Shown: positions 2,957 to 7,651 of the stretch, piece by piece
How the letters are laid out: every line of letters starts with the position of its first letter
Numbering within the stretch: position 1 is the stretch's first letter
Source of the DNA: an uncultured Eubacteriales bacterium
Lineage (GTDB): Bacteria > Bacillota > Clostridia > Lachnospirales > Anaerotignaceae
Assembly (NCBI GenBank): GCA_902406135.1
Contig: CABPCX010000079.1
Coordinates: 1 to 7,651, forward strand
Reading direction: 5' to 3'
DNA length: 7,651 bases
Position numbers and translations under genes: made by a program
The notes under the pieces: model-generated
Database searches by the model: none
What the model saw: only the letters and a program-made list of their open reading frames with translations
What the model was told of the DNA's origin: nothing

Positions 2957-5161
2957 TTATCTCTTATATAAAGCGGCTATTATAATTCCAACAGCTAAGG
3001 CAATGAGTGATGCCGCAATGATTATCACTGTAGAGCTGCTGCTTTGAGTGTCTGTTGGAAAGCTTCCTGCACGAGCACTGTCCGCCGAGGGTGATGTTTC
3101 AGACGGCTGCATCTGTGTACTGCGCCCGTTTGTGGCTGAATTTTCTGTAGTGCCTGATGCACTTGATGTGGTGTCTGACTGTTCTGCAGCTGTTACAGCT
3201 GAATCGTCAGCAGTTTCTTCTGATGTGGTGTTTTGAGAGTCTGATGCTGAAGATGAGTTCGGCTGACTTTCAAATGACATATCAGGAGCAGCAAACGACG
3301 TATTAAATGCTCGTGAAGAAACTGTATTTTCTGTGCTTTCTATATTTTCTGTATTTTCTGCGGTTTCAGACTGTATCTGCAAATCTGCATCGGAACTGTC
3401 AGAAGATGTTACTGTATTGGTTTCGCTTCTAAAATCACCTCCTTTACTGCCTTTATTACCCATATTGCCCATATTCATATTTCCCATATCAGAAATAGAA
3501 ATGAATGAAGCATCTACAAGATTTGAAGAATCCTCCTGCTGTCCTTCTGAAGTAGAAGGTATTGTACCGTTAAGCTGTCCGTTTATACTTTCAGCTCGTA
3601 AAGTACAGAACTGTCTAAGAGTTTCAAATCCTGTTTCAAATTCTTCATAAGTACAGAACTTAGTGGGGTCTTTTTCAACATAGGGTGCTATCAGCGAATA
3701 TACATCATCCATCATCTGGTCAAAATATCCGCTGTCGAAAAAGTCCGATATAAATTCTGCAAAATATGCATGGTAAAGCTGGGTGTGGGTCTCATCTGCA
3801 AATATCCAAGCAAGCATTGGTCTTTCTTCCACCGATAAACCTGAAACAGGAGTATCAATAGGATAGTTAACCATGGATGTAGCATCTGAGCCCCCCTGGA
3901 AACCTCCAAAAGCAAGGTTATAATCCCAGGGTATCATTGAAAGCTGTCCGTCTTCTTCATACAGATAATAATTGTGTATCATTGAGCCGGTATAGCTGTC
4001 AAAGTTGCAGACAAAATTATGAACTACAAAGTATCTTATGACCTCATCAATATTAACGACTTCCTCAATGTTCTCGCCTTCATTCAGCTGTTTTAAGGAT
4101 TCTATAAGGCGGTCCTTATCGGCGTCTGTGATGTCGGTCTCGGCGTTATCAAATATATTGCTGTAACTATCGTAATCGTCATCGGTATATACAAGCAGGG
4201 TGTCATCACTGCTCATTCCTCCGCCACGGCCTCCCTGTTCACGTTTGAAGTCCTGCATATTGGCTGCAGCCGTATCTTCTGTCCCAAGAAAATCAGCAGT
4301 TCCGGAAGAAACGGAAGATTCTGAATTATCATCCGATTCAGATGGAGCCGTGGATTCAAAGGGACCGGCTGATTCAGAAGGAGCAGCCGATTCGGAGGAA
4401 TCTGTGTTATCAGAAGGAATATTTGTATCGGAAGCATTTGGCGGTGTTAAAGATGCCGTATCTTCATTTTCTGTAGGAGGTGAGGGCATATTCTGCATAT
4501 TTTCCGGCTGTTCACCAGGTGCACGGCCGCCGCCACCCATATTTCCGGTGCTGTCAGGCTTATAAAGTTCGCCGTAATCATTCCCGTAGTTTCTTTCCAG
4601 GAATGAGTCTGAAACATCCTCTACAGCAACATACAGTCCCCAGTCCTCACCGTTTACTGTGATGTATGCAAAGCTGCTTAATGGAGCGTCAACACCGAAA
4701 AAGTTCATCATCTGATAGGTCAGATAATCTTTCATATATGTATCATCCTGAATGATGTTGTTTAGGCAGAGACGGTCAAGCCCCTGATAATTGATACTGT
4801 CATCATAGTGGTCAAATTCTATTTTAAAGCTGTATCGGTCATTGCCATAGTTTTGAACCTGTGAAAGAGATGTATTGCCCTTAGCTCTTATTGCTACATT
4901 TGACAAAGTTTCACCGTCTATTGTAACGGAACAGATGGTATATTCTTCATCTGTACAGGTTTCAAGAAAGCTCTCCCAGTCATCCATTTCGATGTCTATT
5001 GTATGTACGACTGATGTATCAAAAAGGGATTCTTCATACTCCTTTGCCTGAGCCGCAGGCTGAATGCCGAATTTTTCGGCATTCATAAACAGTATTGACA
5101 GTATGATTATCACAAGGGTGGCAACAGCACAAATCCTTTCAATATACTTGTGTGTTGACAT
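2957..5161 (-). CDS. CotH-family kinase-like protein, membrane-anchored at both ends
   Basis: The product is 734 residues. The start is fixed by AAAGGAGG 6 nt before the ATG. Parts: a short basic N-terminus, a hydrophobic segment at about 10-26 (signal anchor; an AQA at 37-39 could be a cleavage site but lies far from it), then a CotH kinase domain at about 50-530. That domain carries RAKGNTSL (92-99), GLYVAVEDV (175-183), NFD (Asp388) and PWDYNLAFG (Asp413). The two Asp lie 25 residues apart and match the catalytic metal-binding pair of Bacillus CotH, an atypical protein kinase that phosphorylates spore-coat proteins. A Gly/Met- and Ser/Glu-rich insert (about 204-320) splits the domain. A Ser/Thr-rich tail (535-708) leads to a second membrane segment (711-731) ending in YKR. 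Positive charges at both termini place the domain outside the cytoplasm. It is the third gene of the VTC operon. Substrate unknown. Confidence 0.88.
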   Translation of the reverse strand: MSTHKYIERICAVATLVIIILSILFMNAEKFGIQPAAQAKEYEESLFDTSVVHTIDIEMDDWESFLETCTDEEYTICSVTIDGETLSNVAIRAKGNTSLSQVQNYGNDRYSFKIEFDHYDDSINYQGLDRLCLNNIIQDDTYMKDYLTYQMMNFFGVDAPLSSFAYITVNGEDWGLYVAVEDVSDSFLERNYGNDYGELYKPDSTGNMGGGGRAPGEQPENMQNMPSPPTENEDTASLTPPNASDTNIPSDNTDSSESAAPSESAGPFESTAPSESDDNSESSVSSGTADFLGTEDTAAANMQDFKREQGGRGGGMSSDDTLLVYTDDDYDSYSNIFDNAETDITDADKDRLIESLKQLNEGENIEEVVNIDEVIRYFVVHNFVCNFDSYTGSMIHNYYLYEEDGQLSMIPWDYNLAFGGFQGGSDATSMVNYPIDTPVSGLSVEERPMLAWIFADETHTQLYHAYFAEFISDFFDSGYFDQMMDDVYSLIAPYVEKDPTKFCTYEEFETGFETLRQFCTLRAESINGQLNGTIPSTSEGQQEDSSNLVDASFISISDMGNMNMGNMGNKGSKGGDFRSETNTVTSSDSSDADLQIQSETAENTENIESTENTVSSRAFNTSFAAPDMSFESQPNSSSASDSQNTTSEETADDSAVTAAEQSDTTSSASGTTENSATNGRSTQMQPSETSPSADSARAGSFPTDTQSSSSTVIIIAASLIALAVGIIIAALYKR
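3038..3559 (-). repeat. Ser/Thr/Glu-rich low-complexity tail of the CotH protein
   Basis: Residues 535-708 are dominated by Ser, Thr, Glu, Asp, Asn and Ala, with short tandem-like motifs: MGNMNMGNMGNKGSKGG at about 559-575 and ENTENIESTENT at 602-613, where the DNA repeats TTTTCTGT-like units (about 3323-3358, plus-strand reading). It resembles a flexible stalk spanning the cell wall up to the C-terminal membrane anchor. Confidence 0.7.
4202..4552 (-). repeat. Low-complexity insert inside the CotH kinase domain
   Basis: Residues about 204-320 interrupt the kinase-like domain between GLYVAVEDV and the Asp388/Asp413 catalytic region. The insert opens with a Gly-rich stretch (GNMGGGGRAPGE), runs through Pro/Thr/Asn-rich sequence and PSES-type repeats (Ser-Glu-Ser motifs at about 255-285), and closes with a second Gly-rich stretch (GGRGGGM). 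It is probably a disordered surface loop. Confidence 0.7.
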
Positions 5162-5167
5162 ATACTA

Positions 5168-5175
5168 CCTCCTTT
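5168..5175 (-). promoter_or_regulatory. Ribosome binding site of the CotH gene
   Basis: Read on the minus strand, AAAGGAGG lies 6 nt before the ATG at 5161 and overlaps the TAA stop of the DUF4956 gene (5174-5176). This is consistent with coupled translation of the two genes. Confidence 0.85.
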
Positions 5176-5845
5176 AACCCATATACTCGCCGTTATAGCT
5201 GACTAAAACAGCACTGCTTACGCCTGACATATCGGCCAGAGTATTTATAAAGTCAGTATTATCGTCCTTAAGTCTTATTTCTATATTAAGCTCAATAAGG
5301 TCTTTTTGAGCCGTTTTGCTCTTAACCACTGAGCGCTGTACCTGTGACTTTAAAAATTTGCTTGCTGAAAGTTCGCTTTCGTGGTCCTCACAGCGTATTA
5401 CTACCATATATGGATTGTAGTGAGCCTTTCTGTTTGCGAATACGAGAAGCATAAGTCCGATAACGACACTGCCGAATACGGCGAGGGGAATAAGTCCTGC
5501 CGCAAGGACTATGCCGGCTGCGATAGACCAAAACAGAAACGCTATGTCCAGCGGTTCTTTGATAGCGGTACGGAAACGTACAATAGAAAGGGCGCCGACC
5601 ATACCTAAGGAAAGAACTATATTTGAAGTAACCGCAAGGATAACGAGAGTTGTTATCATAACAAGGGCTATTAATGTAACTCCAAAGTTTGAGGAATACA
5701 TTACTCCTGCAAATGTTTTCTTATGGATAAGAAAAATAAATAACCCTATGCCAAAGGCCAAAACCAATGCAAGCACCATATCAAATATTGATACGCTTGA
5801 TATGTTTTCTAAAAAGCTTGATTTAAAAATGTCTTGAAATGTCAT
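5174..5845 (-). CDS. DUF4956 family membrane protein
   Basis: The product is 223 residues and matches the DUF4956 family by its conserved core GALSIVRFRTAIKEPLDIAFLFWSIAAG (about 84-111). Hydrophobic segments at about 20-40, 55-88, 100-118 and 119-137 suggest four or so membrane passes. A soluble C-terminal domain of about 85 residues (139-223) follows, with alternating beta/alpha pattern and an end (MSGVSSAVLVSYNGEY) reminiscent of ferredoxin-like or ACT-like folds. The start is supported by AAGGAG 6 nt before the ATG. The gene sits between the VTC and CotH genes with gaps of 27 and 12 nt, and these three families are commonly found together. The biochemical role is not established. By position, it may partner the VTC enzyme, as the membrane subunits do in the yeast VTC complex, but that is inference. 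Confidence 0.88.
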   Translation of the reverse strand: MTFQDIFKSSFLENISSVSIFDMVLALVLAFGIGLFIFLIHKKTFAGVMYSSNFGVTLIALVMITTLVILAVTSNIVLSLGMVGALSIVRFRTAIKEPLDIAFLFWSIAAGIVLAAGLIPLAVFGSVVIGLMLLVFANRKAHYNPYMVVIRCEDHESELSASKFLKSQVQRSVVKSKTAQKDLIELNIEIRLKDDNTDFINTLADMSGVSSAVLVSYNGEYMG

Positions 5846-5850
5846 AAAAT

Positions 5851-5857
5851 TCTCCTT
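5851..5857 (-). promoter_or_regulatory. Ribosome binding site of the DUF4956 gene
   Basis: Minus-strand AAGGAGA lies 5-6 nt before the ATG at 5845, within the 27-nt gap after the VTC gene. Confidence 0.8.
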
Positions 5858-5872
5858 GTTTTAAATTTGTTT

Positions 5873-6547
5873 TCAGCCATATATTCTGCAGGCCGCATAT
5901 TTTGAAAATGCACTTGTATGTCTGCCGGGTATCTGTACCAGGTCGGTGACAAATGAAGGAAGGAATTCATCCCATTTTACTTCGAGTATTACTGAAGTAT
6001 CTCCGGCAGGAACCGTAATGCTGTCAGGGGTAAGAAAGTCTTTGCTGGCAATGCCTGTTCGTATATCATAGTCCATTGTTACCCGGGTATTGCCTGCATC
6101 ACATACAAACGGTTCCCTTTTATAGTCCGCTATGGTCCTTGGCATAAGACCCTGAGTTTTCATTTTTATGCCCAGCTCCATAAGTAAAGATGGACTGTTT
6201 CCGGACGTAAGGGCTTCTACATTGCCTGAAAGTATATGCTGTGTCTGTTCATAGCTGATAATCTGCTGCTGTTTGCTGCAAAGCCCGTTTATTTTGCTCT
6301 TTTTTTCAAGAGAAATATGTGAAAGGTCATCATTATAGTATCTAAGACGGAATTTTTCTCTATGATTTACTCCGTTGATTTTTTCTAAAAGTGCCTTATC
6401 CTGAAGATTATCGAAATATAGGCTCCTTACCAAGTAATGTCCGTCTTTTGCGTTGGGGTCAGGCTTCATAACTGCTCTAAGACGGCTTCTCAATATTAGA
6501 AGGTCAGAGTAGCCTATTTCATGTTTCCATTCATGTCGGAATTTCAT
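5873..6547 (-). CDS. VTC-domain polyphosphate polymerase-like protein
   Basis: The product is 224 residues, a stand-alone VTC domain of usual bacterial size with no membrane segment. Family motifs run in order: RHEWKHEI at 4-11 (Arg4, Lys8), YFDN (45-48), REKFRLRYYN (63-72), LEKKSKING (80-88), TIADYKREPF (138-147), NTRVTMDYDIR (153-163), ILEVKWDEFLP (187-197) and the late SKY (215-217). The alternating Arg/Lys/Glu strands are those lining the catalytic tunnel of yeast Vtc4, which makes polyphosphate from ATP, so the active site looks intact. I chose the ATG at 6547 and not the in-frame one at 6580: AAAGGAG sits 8 nt before it, and the family begins with RHE(Y/W)K. It is the first gene of the operon and is probably cytoplasmic. 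Polyphosphate synthesis is inferred from family membership. Confidence 0.88.
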   Translation of the reverse strand: MKFRHEWKHEIGYSDLLILRSRLRAVMKPDPNAKDGHYLVRSLYFDNLQDKALLEKINGVNHREKFRLRYYNDDLSHISLEKKSKINGLCSKQQQIISYEQTQHILSGNVEALTSGNSPSLLMELGIKMKTQGLMPRTIADYKREPFVCDAGNTRVTMDYDIRTGIASKDFLTPDSITVPAGDTSVILEVKWDEFLPSFVTDLVQIPGRHTSAFSKYAACRIYG

Positions 6548-6578: not shown

Positions 6579-6609
6579 ATAATAAAATCAGAAACTTAAT
6601 TTAACTTAA
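6579..6609 (-). promoter_or_regulatory. Candidate promoter and direct-repeat operator of the VTC operon
   Basis: On the minus strand two perfect TTAAGTT copies (complement of 6603-6609 and 6593-6599) are separated by AAA, a 10-bp period. Eight nt further downstream is TATTAT (complement of 6579-6584), a good -10 element, with no recognisable -35. Tandem half-sites one helical turn apart that take the place of the -35 are how many PhoB/OmpR-type activators bind. The predicted transcript start would leave a leader of about 25 nt before the VTC ATG. The region is very A+T-rich, so this may be chance. Confidence 0.4.
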
Positions 6610-6626
6610 AAATTACACGGATTTAA

Positions 6627-6671
6627 TAAAAAAATATCAGCTTCCAAAAACAATGTTTTGGAAGCTGATAT
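6627..6671 (-). terminator. Intrinsic terminator after the second sensor kinase
   Basis: A perfect 16-bp stem (6634-6649 with 6656-6671) encloses a 6-nt loop. On the minus strand it is followed by a run of T (complement of the A tract at 6628-6634). It begins 8 nt past the kinase stop codon and separates the kinase transcript from the VTC operon, implying that the latter has its own promoter. Confidence 0.9.
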
Positions 6672-6678
6672 AAGTGTT

Positions 6679-7651
6679 TTAAAGAGGCAGTATAACGGAA
6701 ATATTTAATGAATGTTCATCAGTGGTTGATGCTGTTATTTTTCCCTTGTGGGATGATACTATTGCATGGGCAATGGATAAGCCAAGGCCGTATCCTCCGG
6801 TATCGGAATTTCTTGACTGGTCAGTGCGGTAAAAACGGTCGAATAAATACGGCGTCTGAGCCTTTGAAATATATTCTGTAGTGTTATAAACAGAAAAATA
6901 AATTTGATTTTTCTGCTGTTTCAGCACACAGGATATCTTTCCTTTAGGCTCAGAGTATTTGAGTGCATTATCCATAAGAAGCGAAACAAGCTTTCGTATG
7001 GCTTTTTCGTCACCTCGAAAAGAAATAAGTGGCTGTATGCTGATTTCCAAAGTTTTTTCCTGCGCTTTTGCCATGGTCTGAAAACTTTGAATTGTTTCCT
7101 CAACTATATCTGACAAAGGAAAATCCAGTACCTGGGTCTTAGTCTGTTCTTCTTCCATTCGGGAAAGGAGTATCAGGTCATTTGTCAGCTCGGATAAGCG
7201 TTTGGTCTGGGACTGGATATCACTGAGCCATTCGTTTTCTCCAAAATCCATGGTAAGTATTTCGGCATCGGCATCGATAATAGTAAGAGGGGTTTTTAGT
7301 TCATGTCCCGCATCTGTTATAAAGCGTTTCTGCTTTTCGTAATTTTCTGAAAATGGCTTAACTATACGGCCTGAAAGCAAGATAAGCAGGAACAGTACAA
7401 GAGCTGAGCCTGTAATAGATACCGCAATGCAGCTTGCAAGAAGAGTTCTGAAATTATCTAAGCTTCTTCCGCAGTCTAAAAAAATGATGAGAGATTCGCC
7501 ATCCGAAGTAGACATAAGATAACGATAGTCTCCTATAAAACCTTCTGTGCTTCCTTCTTCTCATACATCCTTTGCGTATTCAACTGCCGTTTCTGAATCT
7601 ATGGCGGCAATCTTTCCTGTATTTACAGAAAGAGTATCGCCTTTTTCAGCC
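6679..7651 (-). pseudogene. Sensor histidine kinase interrupted by an in-frame TGA (5' end outside window)
   Basis: From the window edge the minus-strand frame reads kinase-like sequence (ending VEYAKDV), meets TGA at 7561-7563, and continues in the same frame (EEGSTEGFIGDYRYL) into a normal kinase. Numbering from the Met at 7515, there is a membrane segment at about 25-48, HisKA with His71 in DAGHELKTPLTII, N-box MDNALKYS (181-188), F-box LFDRFYRTD (224-232) and G2 box GGYGLGLS (240-247). The G1 box is VYNTTEYIS in place of DxGxG, a variant seen in a common group of Firmicute kinases. The sensor region spans the stop, so full-length protein would need readthrough or a sequencing error. Restart at Met 7515 would lack the first membrane segment and most of the sensor, and its nearest AGGAG is about 14 nt away. 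A partner response regulator probably lies beyond the window. Confidence 0.75.

Follow-up and report, generated by a model that had tools for sequence, protein, structure and literature searches.

What might a putative polyphosphate polymerase, a membrane protein of DUF4956 (a Pfam family of unknown function) and a CotH-family protein do together? The question is raised by a stretch of 7651 bases (here called the window; contig CABPCX010000079.1 of assembly GCA_902406135.1, from an uncultured Eubacteriales bacterium), in which the genes for a VTC protein (5873..6547), a DUF4956 protein (5174..5845) and a CotH-family protein (2957..5161) form one operon on the minus strand, with intergenic gaps of 27 and 12 bases. 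When the seven window proteins were scanned with Pfam, all three exceeded the curated cut-offs, in agreement with the original prediction, made from the letters of the DNA, of three tightly packed genes. New here are the observations that VTC and DUF4956 are a core pair, that the third gene is interchangeable, that its two kinds, CotH and Cthe_2159, share a 33-residue N-terminus (hereafter the tag), and that in 34/73 loci the gene closest to VTC on its upstream side belongs to a two-component system, with repeats before VTC. Tentatively, and with a rough probability of 0.45, we read the operon as encoding a two-component-regulated membrane polyphosphate synthase that would hand its polymer to a tagged, docked surface partner.

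Two sets of loci bear on the pairing. A search with the window VTC protein gave 212 relatives, the best 80 of which (58–67% identity) were taken and constitute, with the window, a close set of 81 loci. A phylum sample of 249 genomes was drawn to escape this similarity-chosen set (one close-set genome, G016, is included); it is made of drafts and metagenome-assembled genomes, and absences in it are therefore soft. In the phylum sample, VTC and DUF4956 were each found in 35 genomes, the identical 35, with 43 copies of each (Fisher value 1.7e-43 over the 249 genomes, kinship ignored). For 42 of the 43 VTC copies DUF4956 is encoded on the same strand; between matches the distance is at most 353 bp in 41 of these and 1966 bp in the other, where CotH intervenes, and the remaining copy has its DUF4956 on a different contig. 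CotH occurs in 33 of the 249 genomes (32 above the cut-off), and 29 of those 32 also hold VTC. The most frequent order is VTC-DUF4956-CotH (23 of the 43 VTC copies), followed by VTC-DUF4956 (11), DUF4956-VTC (four), four other orders (one each) and VTC alone (one). In the close set the two genes are adjacent in 79/81 loci, with the exception of L045, an artefact of open reading frame (ORF) picking in which VTC was matched, and of L017, which has no DUF4956 label. The recurrence of the three families, mentioned in the original prediction, is borne out, with P-values that ignore kinship. Its suggestion that DUF4956 is the membrane partner of VTC stands as far as constant partnership goes, the delivery of polymer keeping the status of a proposal. 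In one genome (G019), about 8 kb separates a pair of VTC genes on contig C16 (45915–54695), and two more are on other contigs.

The window VTC protein, of 224 amino acids (aa), is a predicted polyphosphate polymerase (PF09359, E 1.2e-34, 120.3 bits against a cut-off of 23). Its listed ORF start, 6580, is too early, since AGGAG lies just 5' of ATG 6547 and the likely -10 element covers 6579–6584. Across 76 aligned VTC sequences 18 columns are invariant, and the basic ones align, in the window protein, to R196, K200, R264, R266, K281, K294, R361 and R373 of yeast Vtc4, in keeping with the intact charged motifs noticed originally; Vtc4 E426 and S457/K458 were matched only via a weak second stretch (-0.6 bits). 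In the predicted model the tunnel fold is closest to Vtc4, and a Vtc4-like VTC protein is supported by both tunnel residues and fold. As in the yeast VTC complex (Vtc4/Vtc3/Vtc1), the enzyme would be cytosolic, with a separate membrane part. Unlike that complex, the trio has no SPX domain and no Vtc1-type subunit, DUF4956 being the presumed membrane subunit (Pfam gives for the trio only VTC, DUF4956 with one sub-threshold match, and CotH); there is also no vacuole, and coupling is only proposed. The sections at hand of PMC4641920, in which the acidic patch of tripolyphosphatases is described, present tunnel enzymes as alike in fold and residues and unlike in activity, so VTC might be another triphosphate-tunnel enzyme, e.g., a tripolyphosphatase, and not a polymerase. 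At the acidic patch positions, the window protein has R4, basic as in Vtc4, and E6, acidic where Vtc4 has T198, and so retains one of the acidic positions found in tunnels of the tripolyphosphatase type. We consider this explanation very improbable. A partial literature search found no assay of any bacterial VTC protein.

The DUF4956 protein (223 aa; PF16316, E 1.4e-10, 41.6 bits against a cut-off of 30.6) is, in the predicted model (mean predicted local distance difference test score, pLDDT, 79.9), composed of five helices of 13–25 residues, all within residues 1–137, followed by an ACT-like domain at the C-terminus, as would be expected of the multi-pass membrane protein first proposed. We noticed that R90-F91-R92 is invariant in 87 sequences and sits in the loop between helices 76–88 and 98–115. 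MgtC/SapB proteins appear to share with it a membrane half and a C-terminal ACT-like domain, and match it weakly in sequence, whereas the R-F-R loop and the constant pairing with VTC set DUF4956 apart from them. The NCBIfam MgtC/SapB model (PRK09977) was not reached by the window protein (E 9.2e-9, 35.2 bits against a cut-off of 214), and five further DUF4956 proteins gave two matches at E < 1e-3, one at 0.064 and two none. A Foldseek search with the DUF4956 model gave no match at E 1e-3; the top match, above this value, was the MgtC C-terminal domain (2lqj), and all listed rows came from the ACT-like domain, none from the membrane half.

The window CotH protein (734 aa; PF08757, E 4.3e-61, 207.6 bits against a cut-off of 23.8) keeps the motifs NFD (D388) and PWDYN (D413), which align to spore coat protein H (5jd9) and among whose residues are those that we take to be catalytic, and it thus appears to be the CotH kinase-like protein originally named. 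It has N- and C-terminal hydrophobic segments and Ser/Thr-rich stretches. Its Ser/Thr content (21%, much of it in low-complexity stretches) tops that of all others among the 71 third-gene proteins compared, and the protein may possibly be its own substrate. The CotH spore coat kinase is alike in family and motifs, whereas the window protein is predicted to be membrane-anchored, is tagged and stands in a context without a spore-coat pointer. CotH had been taken for a fixed member of the operon. A motif check and Pfam led us to abandon this view, as the slot holds Cthe_2159, of a different and unrelated Pfam family, in 16/81 close and 10/30 sampled loci. With third genes typed by profiles built from the mature parts of both proteins, the other close loci have CotH (59, the window included), a contig end (three), a gene on the opposite strand (one), another gene (one) or no DUF4956 (one), and the other sampled loci have CotH (12), VTC next (six), another gene (one) or a contig end (one). 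The ten sampled Cthe_2159 genes account for ten of the eleven VTC-DUF4956 copies without CotH. PF14262 was confirmed by Pfam in 7/8 and 9/10 submitted proteins, the other two being CotH, and the remaining Cthe_2159 calls rest on profiles, not Pfam.

Both kinds of third gene begin alike. In the window CotH protein the tag (5063..5161, minus strand) consists of MSTHKYIERIC, a hydrophobic helix and LFMNAEKFGI, and has its counterpart in Cthe_2159 proteins that occupy the same slot in related loci. In 54 CotH and 15 Cthe_2159 sequences, picked by a pattern favouring positions 5, 8 and 11, identity between the kinds is 50.3% over residues 1–33, 67% over 1–11 and 6.1% over 34–66. The tag looks constrained beyond hydrophobicity, since the 50.3% is close to the identity within each kind (50.8 and 53.9%) while the mature parts differ fully and shuffled sequences give 13.7%. 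Profiles made without the pattern-based choice recovered the same relation: one of 26 CotH N-termini matches 16/16 Cthe_2159 N-termini (E 8e-21 to 3e-8) and one of 11 Cthe_2159 N-termini matches 58/59 CotH, each with 0/941 other ORFs. A scan of 48 whole genomes, all selected for holding VTC, found the tag in 52 places, of which 49 are at VTC loci (29 recognised from DUF4956 and VTC in the retrieved sequence, 20 by position). The three others are a CotH gene near a contig end (at 145 bases; G048), an orphan CotH and a weak match (E 5.7e-4) that was discarded as chance, its frame looking by eye like a PASTA-type Ser/Thr kinase. Fourteen further Cthe_2159 frames above the cut-off in ten of the scanned genomes have no tag, one of these frames (G029, C35) adjoins a second VTC copy, and among the best 120 of 196 matches CotH was the only kind of protein with the tag. 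The orphan (L149, 2535–4250, minus strand), for which 8.5 kb of sequence was inspected without a VTC gene appearing, shows WNSYTG where relatives show NFD/NGD, so it is possibly an inactive kinase bearing the tag; in its genome the VTC slot is filled by a tagged Cthe_2159.

This shared N-terminus could also be a relic, that is, an ancestral signal anchor kept while the mature domain was replaced, with no docking role, and the sharp boundary after residue 33 fits such a replacement. A tagged neighbour is present for 27 of 38 VTC copies (26 genomes) and lacking for 11. More distant sampled loci are tagged in 3/12 CotH and 1/10 Cthe_2159 cases, several of the other N-termini there being lipoprotein-like by eye. 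A relic is harder to reconcile with an identity as high across as within kinds whose mature parts are wholly different, with the orphan tagged CotH, which lies apart from VTC while a tagged Cthe_2159 fills the VTC slot of that genome, and with the 14 untagged Cthe_2159 frames of the scanned genomes, and we regard it as doubtful.

The third gene also bears on the possibility of a cytosolic polyphosphate or phosphate homeostasis system, in which the polymer would stay inside, an MgtC-like DUF4956 would tune ATP or phosphate metabolism and CotH would be a passenger. The weak MgtC-like sequence match, the ACT-like domain, the lack of a PPK1 match in 23/35 VTC genomes and the role in phosphate metabolism suggested by the authors in the sections at hand of PMC12345266 are all consistent with it. 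Nevertheless, the third gene is of exported type in 75 of 77 legible close-set cases, its tag is found almost only at VTC loci, and PPK1 does not avoid VTC (12/35 VTC genomes vs 25/214 others, odds ratio 3.9), which makes such a system decidedly unlikely. The same PPK1 counts led us to reject VTC as a PPK1 substitute.

The original prediction held the joint function of the three families not to be established. The trio itself has been published, together with some of its genetics. In the sections at hand of PMC7112168, the pelDEADAFG genes of streptococci and clostridia are described with neighbours for DUF4832, DUF4956, CotH and a poly-phosphate polymerase (a cyclic di-GMP enzyme takes the place of DUF4832 in bifidobacteria), and the trio figures as an accessory set of the Pel polysaccharide, stated as not found outside Pel loci. 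In Streptococcus intermedius each accessory gene (SIR_1591-1594 set) was deleted, with aggregation and Pel, and not polyphosphate, as the readouts in the sections at hand (PMC12345266): in artificial sputum, strains lacking DUF4956 (SIR_1592) or CotH (SIR_1594) showed less than half the aggregation, and Pel was raised by the former deletion and lowered by the latter. The operon could thus be a surface-polysaccharide accessory, with VTC/DUF4956 as an inner-membrane regulator, CotH phosphorylating an envelope protein or sugar, and no polyphosphate export. The Pel linkage and these phenotypes argue for it, as do the glycosyltransferase neighbours on plasmids of Planococcus and Pseudobutyrivibrio and in NELoc-2 of Clostridium perfringens. 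The sections at hand of PMC2879425 list for NELoc-2 a VTC protein, a membrane protein of 222–226 aa annotated as tubulin/FtsZ GTPase, which by size and order is probably DUF4956, and then CotH; it differs from the window in that HEAT-repeat and glycosyltransferase genes follow, as on the Planococcus plasmid. On the latter (P. maritimus, L116, 5389–12824) the order is VTC-DUF4956-CotH-690 aa protein-HEAT repeat-glycosyltransferase, the layout of the CotH end of NELoc-2.

The genomes examined here speak differently. PelG was found in 8/249 sampled genomes (seven above the cut-off), and 1/43 sampled VTC copies lies beside it (G183, C5, in the order CotH-CotH-VTC-DUF4956), leaving 42 that do not. 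For the close set, 78 genomes were tested (29 and 49; L079 and L075 are in one genome, and that of L031 is not among the 78), and PelG was above the cut-off in 4/29 and 3/49, always on another draft contig than the VTC locus. The window itself has no polysaccharide gene, and no Pel family was found by Pfam among its seven proteins, though Pel genes may lie further off in the genome. For the genomes examined we reject the Pel context as a general explanation, and the published statement does not hold in the 249-genome sample, with the caveat that it may refer to the order CotH-VTC-DUF4956. This order occurs on the Pseudobutyrivibrio plasmid amid glycosyltransferase genes, one of the GT4 family, with nothing annotated as Pel within 7 kb (by annotation, no Pel models having been applied). 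In both the published set and the window the three families adjoin one another, and the membrane protein of the set is likewise described as MgtC plus ACT; they differ in that the window lacks a Pel gene, has the order VTC-DUF4956-CotH instead of CotH-VTC-DUF4956, and belongs to a type with an adjoining two-component system, a CotH swappable for Cthe_2159 and a shared N-terminal tag. We therefore hold a polysaccharide accessory without polyphosphate export to be unlikely; a role in polysaccharide would be compatible with the synthase reading were the matrix a target of polyphosphate.

A further element came to light that the earlier reading of the trio alone had omitted, namely that a two-component system goes with the operon. 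In the 73 close loci with at least 1 kb upstream (of the other eight, seven had too little sequence and one lacked a VTC label), a kinase lies directly upstream on the same strand in 18, a divergent response regulator in 16 and a two-component gene within three genes in five. A two-component gene stands at position -1 in 36/78 loci and at position +1 in 1/65. The window has a promoter-like element before VTC (6579..6608, minus strand), formed by two directly repeated TAAG copies spaced 10 bp apart (6605–6608 and 6595–6598) and TATTAT (6579–6584). The pattern TAAGN6-7TAAG, about 10 bases 5' of a TATAAT-like box, precedes VTC in 17/20 same-strand loci, the window included, against 0/16 divergent loci, 6/39 loci without a neighbouring system and 8/548 other genes. 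TCAGN7TCAG is found in 10/16 divergent loci (3/548 other genes) and TTCAAN6TTCAA in 2/20 same-strand loci (0/548). All these repeats are direct, with a period of 10–11 bp, and 12/44 response regulator genes also bear TAAGN6-7TAAG. The frequencies are not independent of the search, since the patterns were first read by eye from 27 of the same upstream regions. On an Enterococcus faecalis plasmid (L118, 6887–12014) the order on one strand is VTC-DUF4956-regulator-kinase-CotH, which supports the view that the regulator belongs to the module in another class too; the genes flanking this stretch look by eye like an amidase upstream and a resolvase downstream. The scores of the kinase to PhoR, RppB and others amount to general kinase similarity, and no signal was inferred from them.

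In the mechanism that we propose, VTC would use ATP to make polyphosphate on the inner face of the membrane, and DUF4956 would be its membrane subunit and likely its exit path, the basic R-F-R/K loop receiving the chain. The tagged CotH would likely dock, by its tag, on the VTC-DUF4956 pair and meet the polymer outside. Of the surface partners, Cthe_2159 might bind polyphosphate, and CotH might use it or be modified by it, while the neighbouring regulator would control the operon. Constant VTC and DUF4956, combined with a swapped surface protein and promoter element, fit a synthase with a docked outside partner better than a Pel-specific accessory. A bolder and unlikely form of this proposal is a secretory polyphosphate machine, in which VTC would thread the polymer through an MgtC-fold DUF4956 channel into tag-addressed surface partners: CotH would be an extracytoplasmic kinase using exported polyphosphate as its phosphoryl source, without ATP outside, and Cthe_2159 a surface beta-helix holding the polymer.

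Several points weigh against the synthase reading. In the sections at hand of PMC12345266, the VTC deletion strain (SIR_1593) still aggregates, no change in aggregation being reported, and differing deletion phenotypes count here because a simple chain from VTC to CotH predicts a shared one. To this are added E6 of the window VTC protein, the untagged VTC copies and sparsely tagged distant loci, the weak scores behind the MgtC kinship of DUF4956, which could be a VTC binder without pore function, and the lack of a VTC-DUF4956 fusion among 45 homologues of up to about 505 aa. Moreover, 34/73 close loci have no two-component gene within three genes upstream, and synthesis, export, docking, any phosphorylation at the surface and any use of the polymer by CotH are inferred. 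Taken together, the unvarying pair, the exchangeable surface partner and the common tag make a testable machine out of what had been three genes near Pel. If the reading is true, bacteria gain a means of placing polyphosphate outside the membrane, which might also explain how kinases of the CotH type could function in the absence of ATP. The questions raised are whether VTC needs DUF4956, in which direction the polymer moves and whether the tag is an address for partners.

The rest of the window concerns neighbouring features. Between the histidine kinase gene and VTC lies an intrinsic terminator-like stem of 16 pairs (6634..6671, minus strand). The kinase of the upstream two-component system is present as a C-terminal part with HisKA and HATPase_c (6679..7515, minus strand), and its frame continues upstream past an in-frame TGA in the sensor part (7561..7563, minus strand), either a sequencing error or a real stop reflecting decay; in related loci (e.g., L005, 409 aa) the kinase frame is unbroken. 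The plus strand carries, at 1–2619, an unrelated operon composed of the C-terminus of an OmpR-type response regulator, a WalK-like kinase and a YhaM-like HD nuclease, which converges with the trio on a terminator-like stem at 2809–2842. The G+C content of the window ranges from 31 to 46% in 500-base steps.

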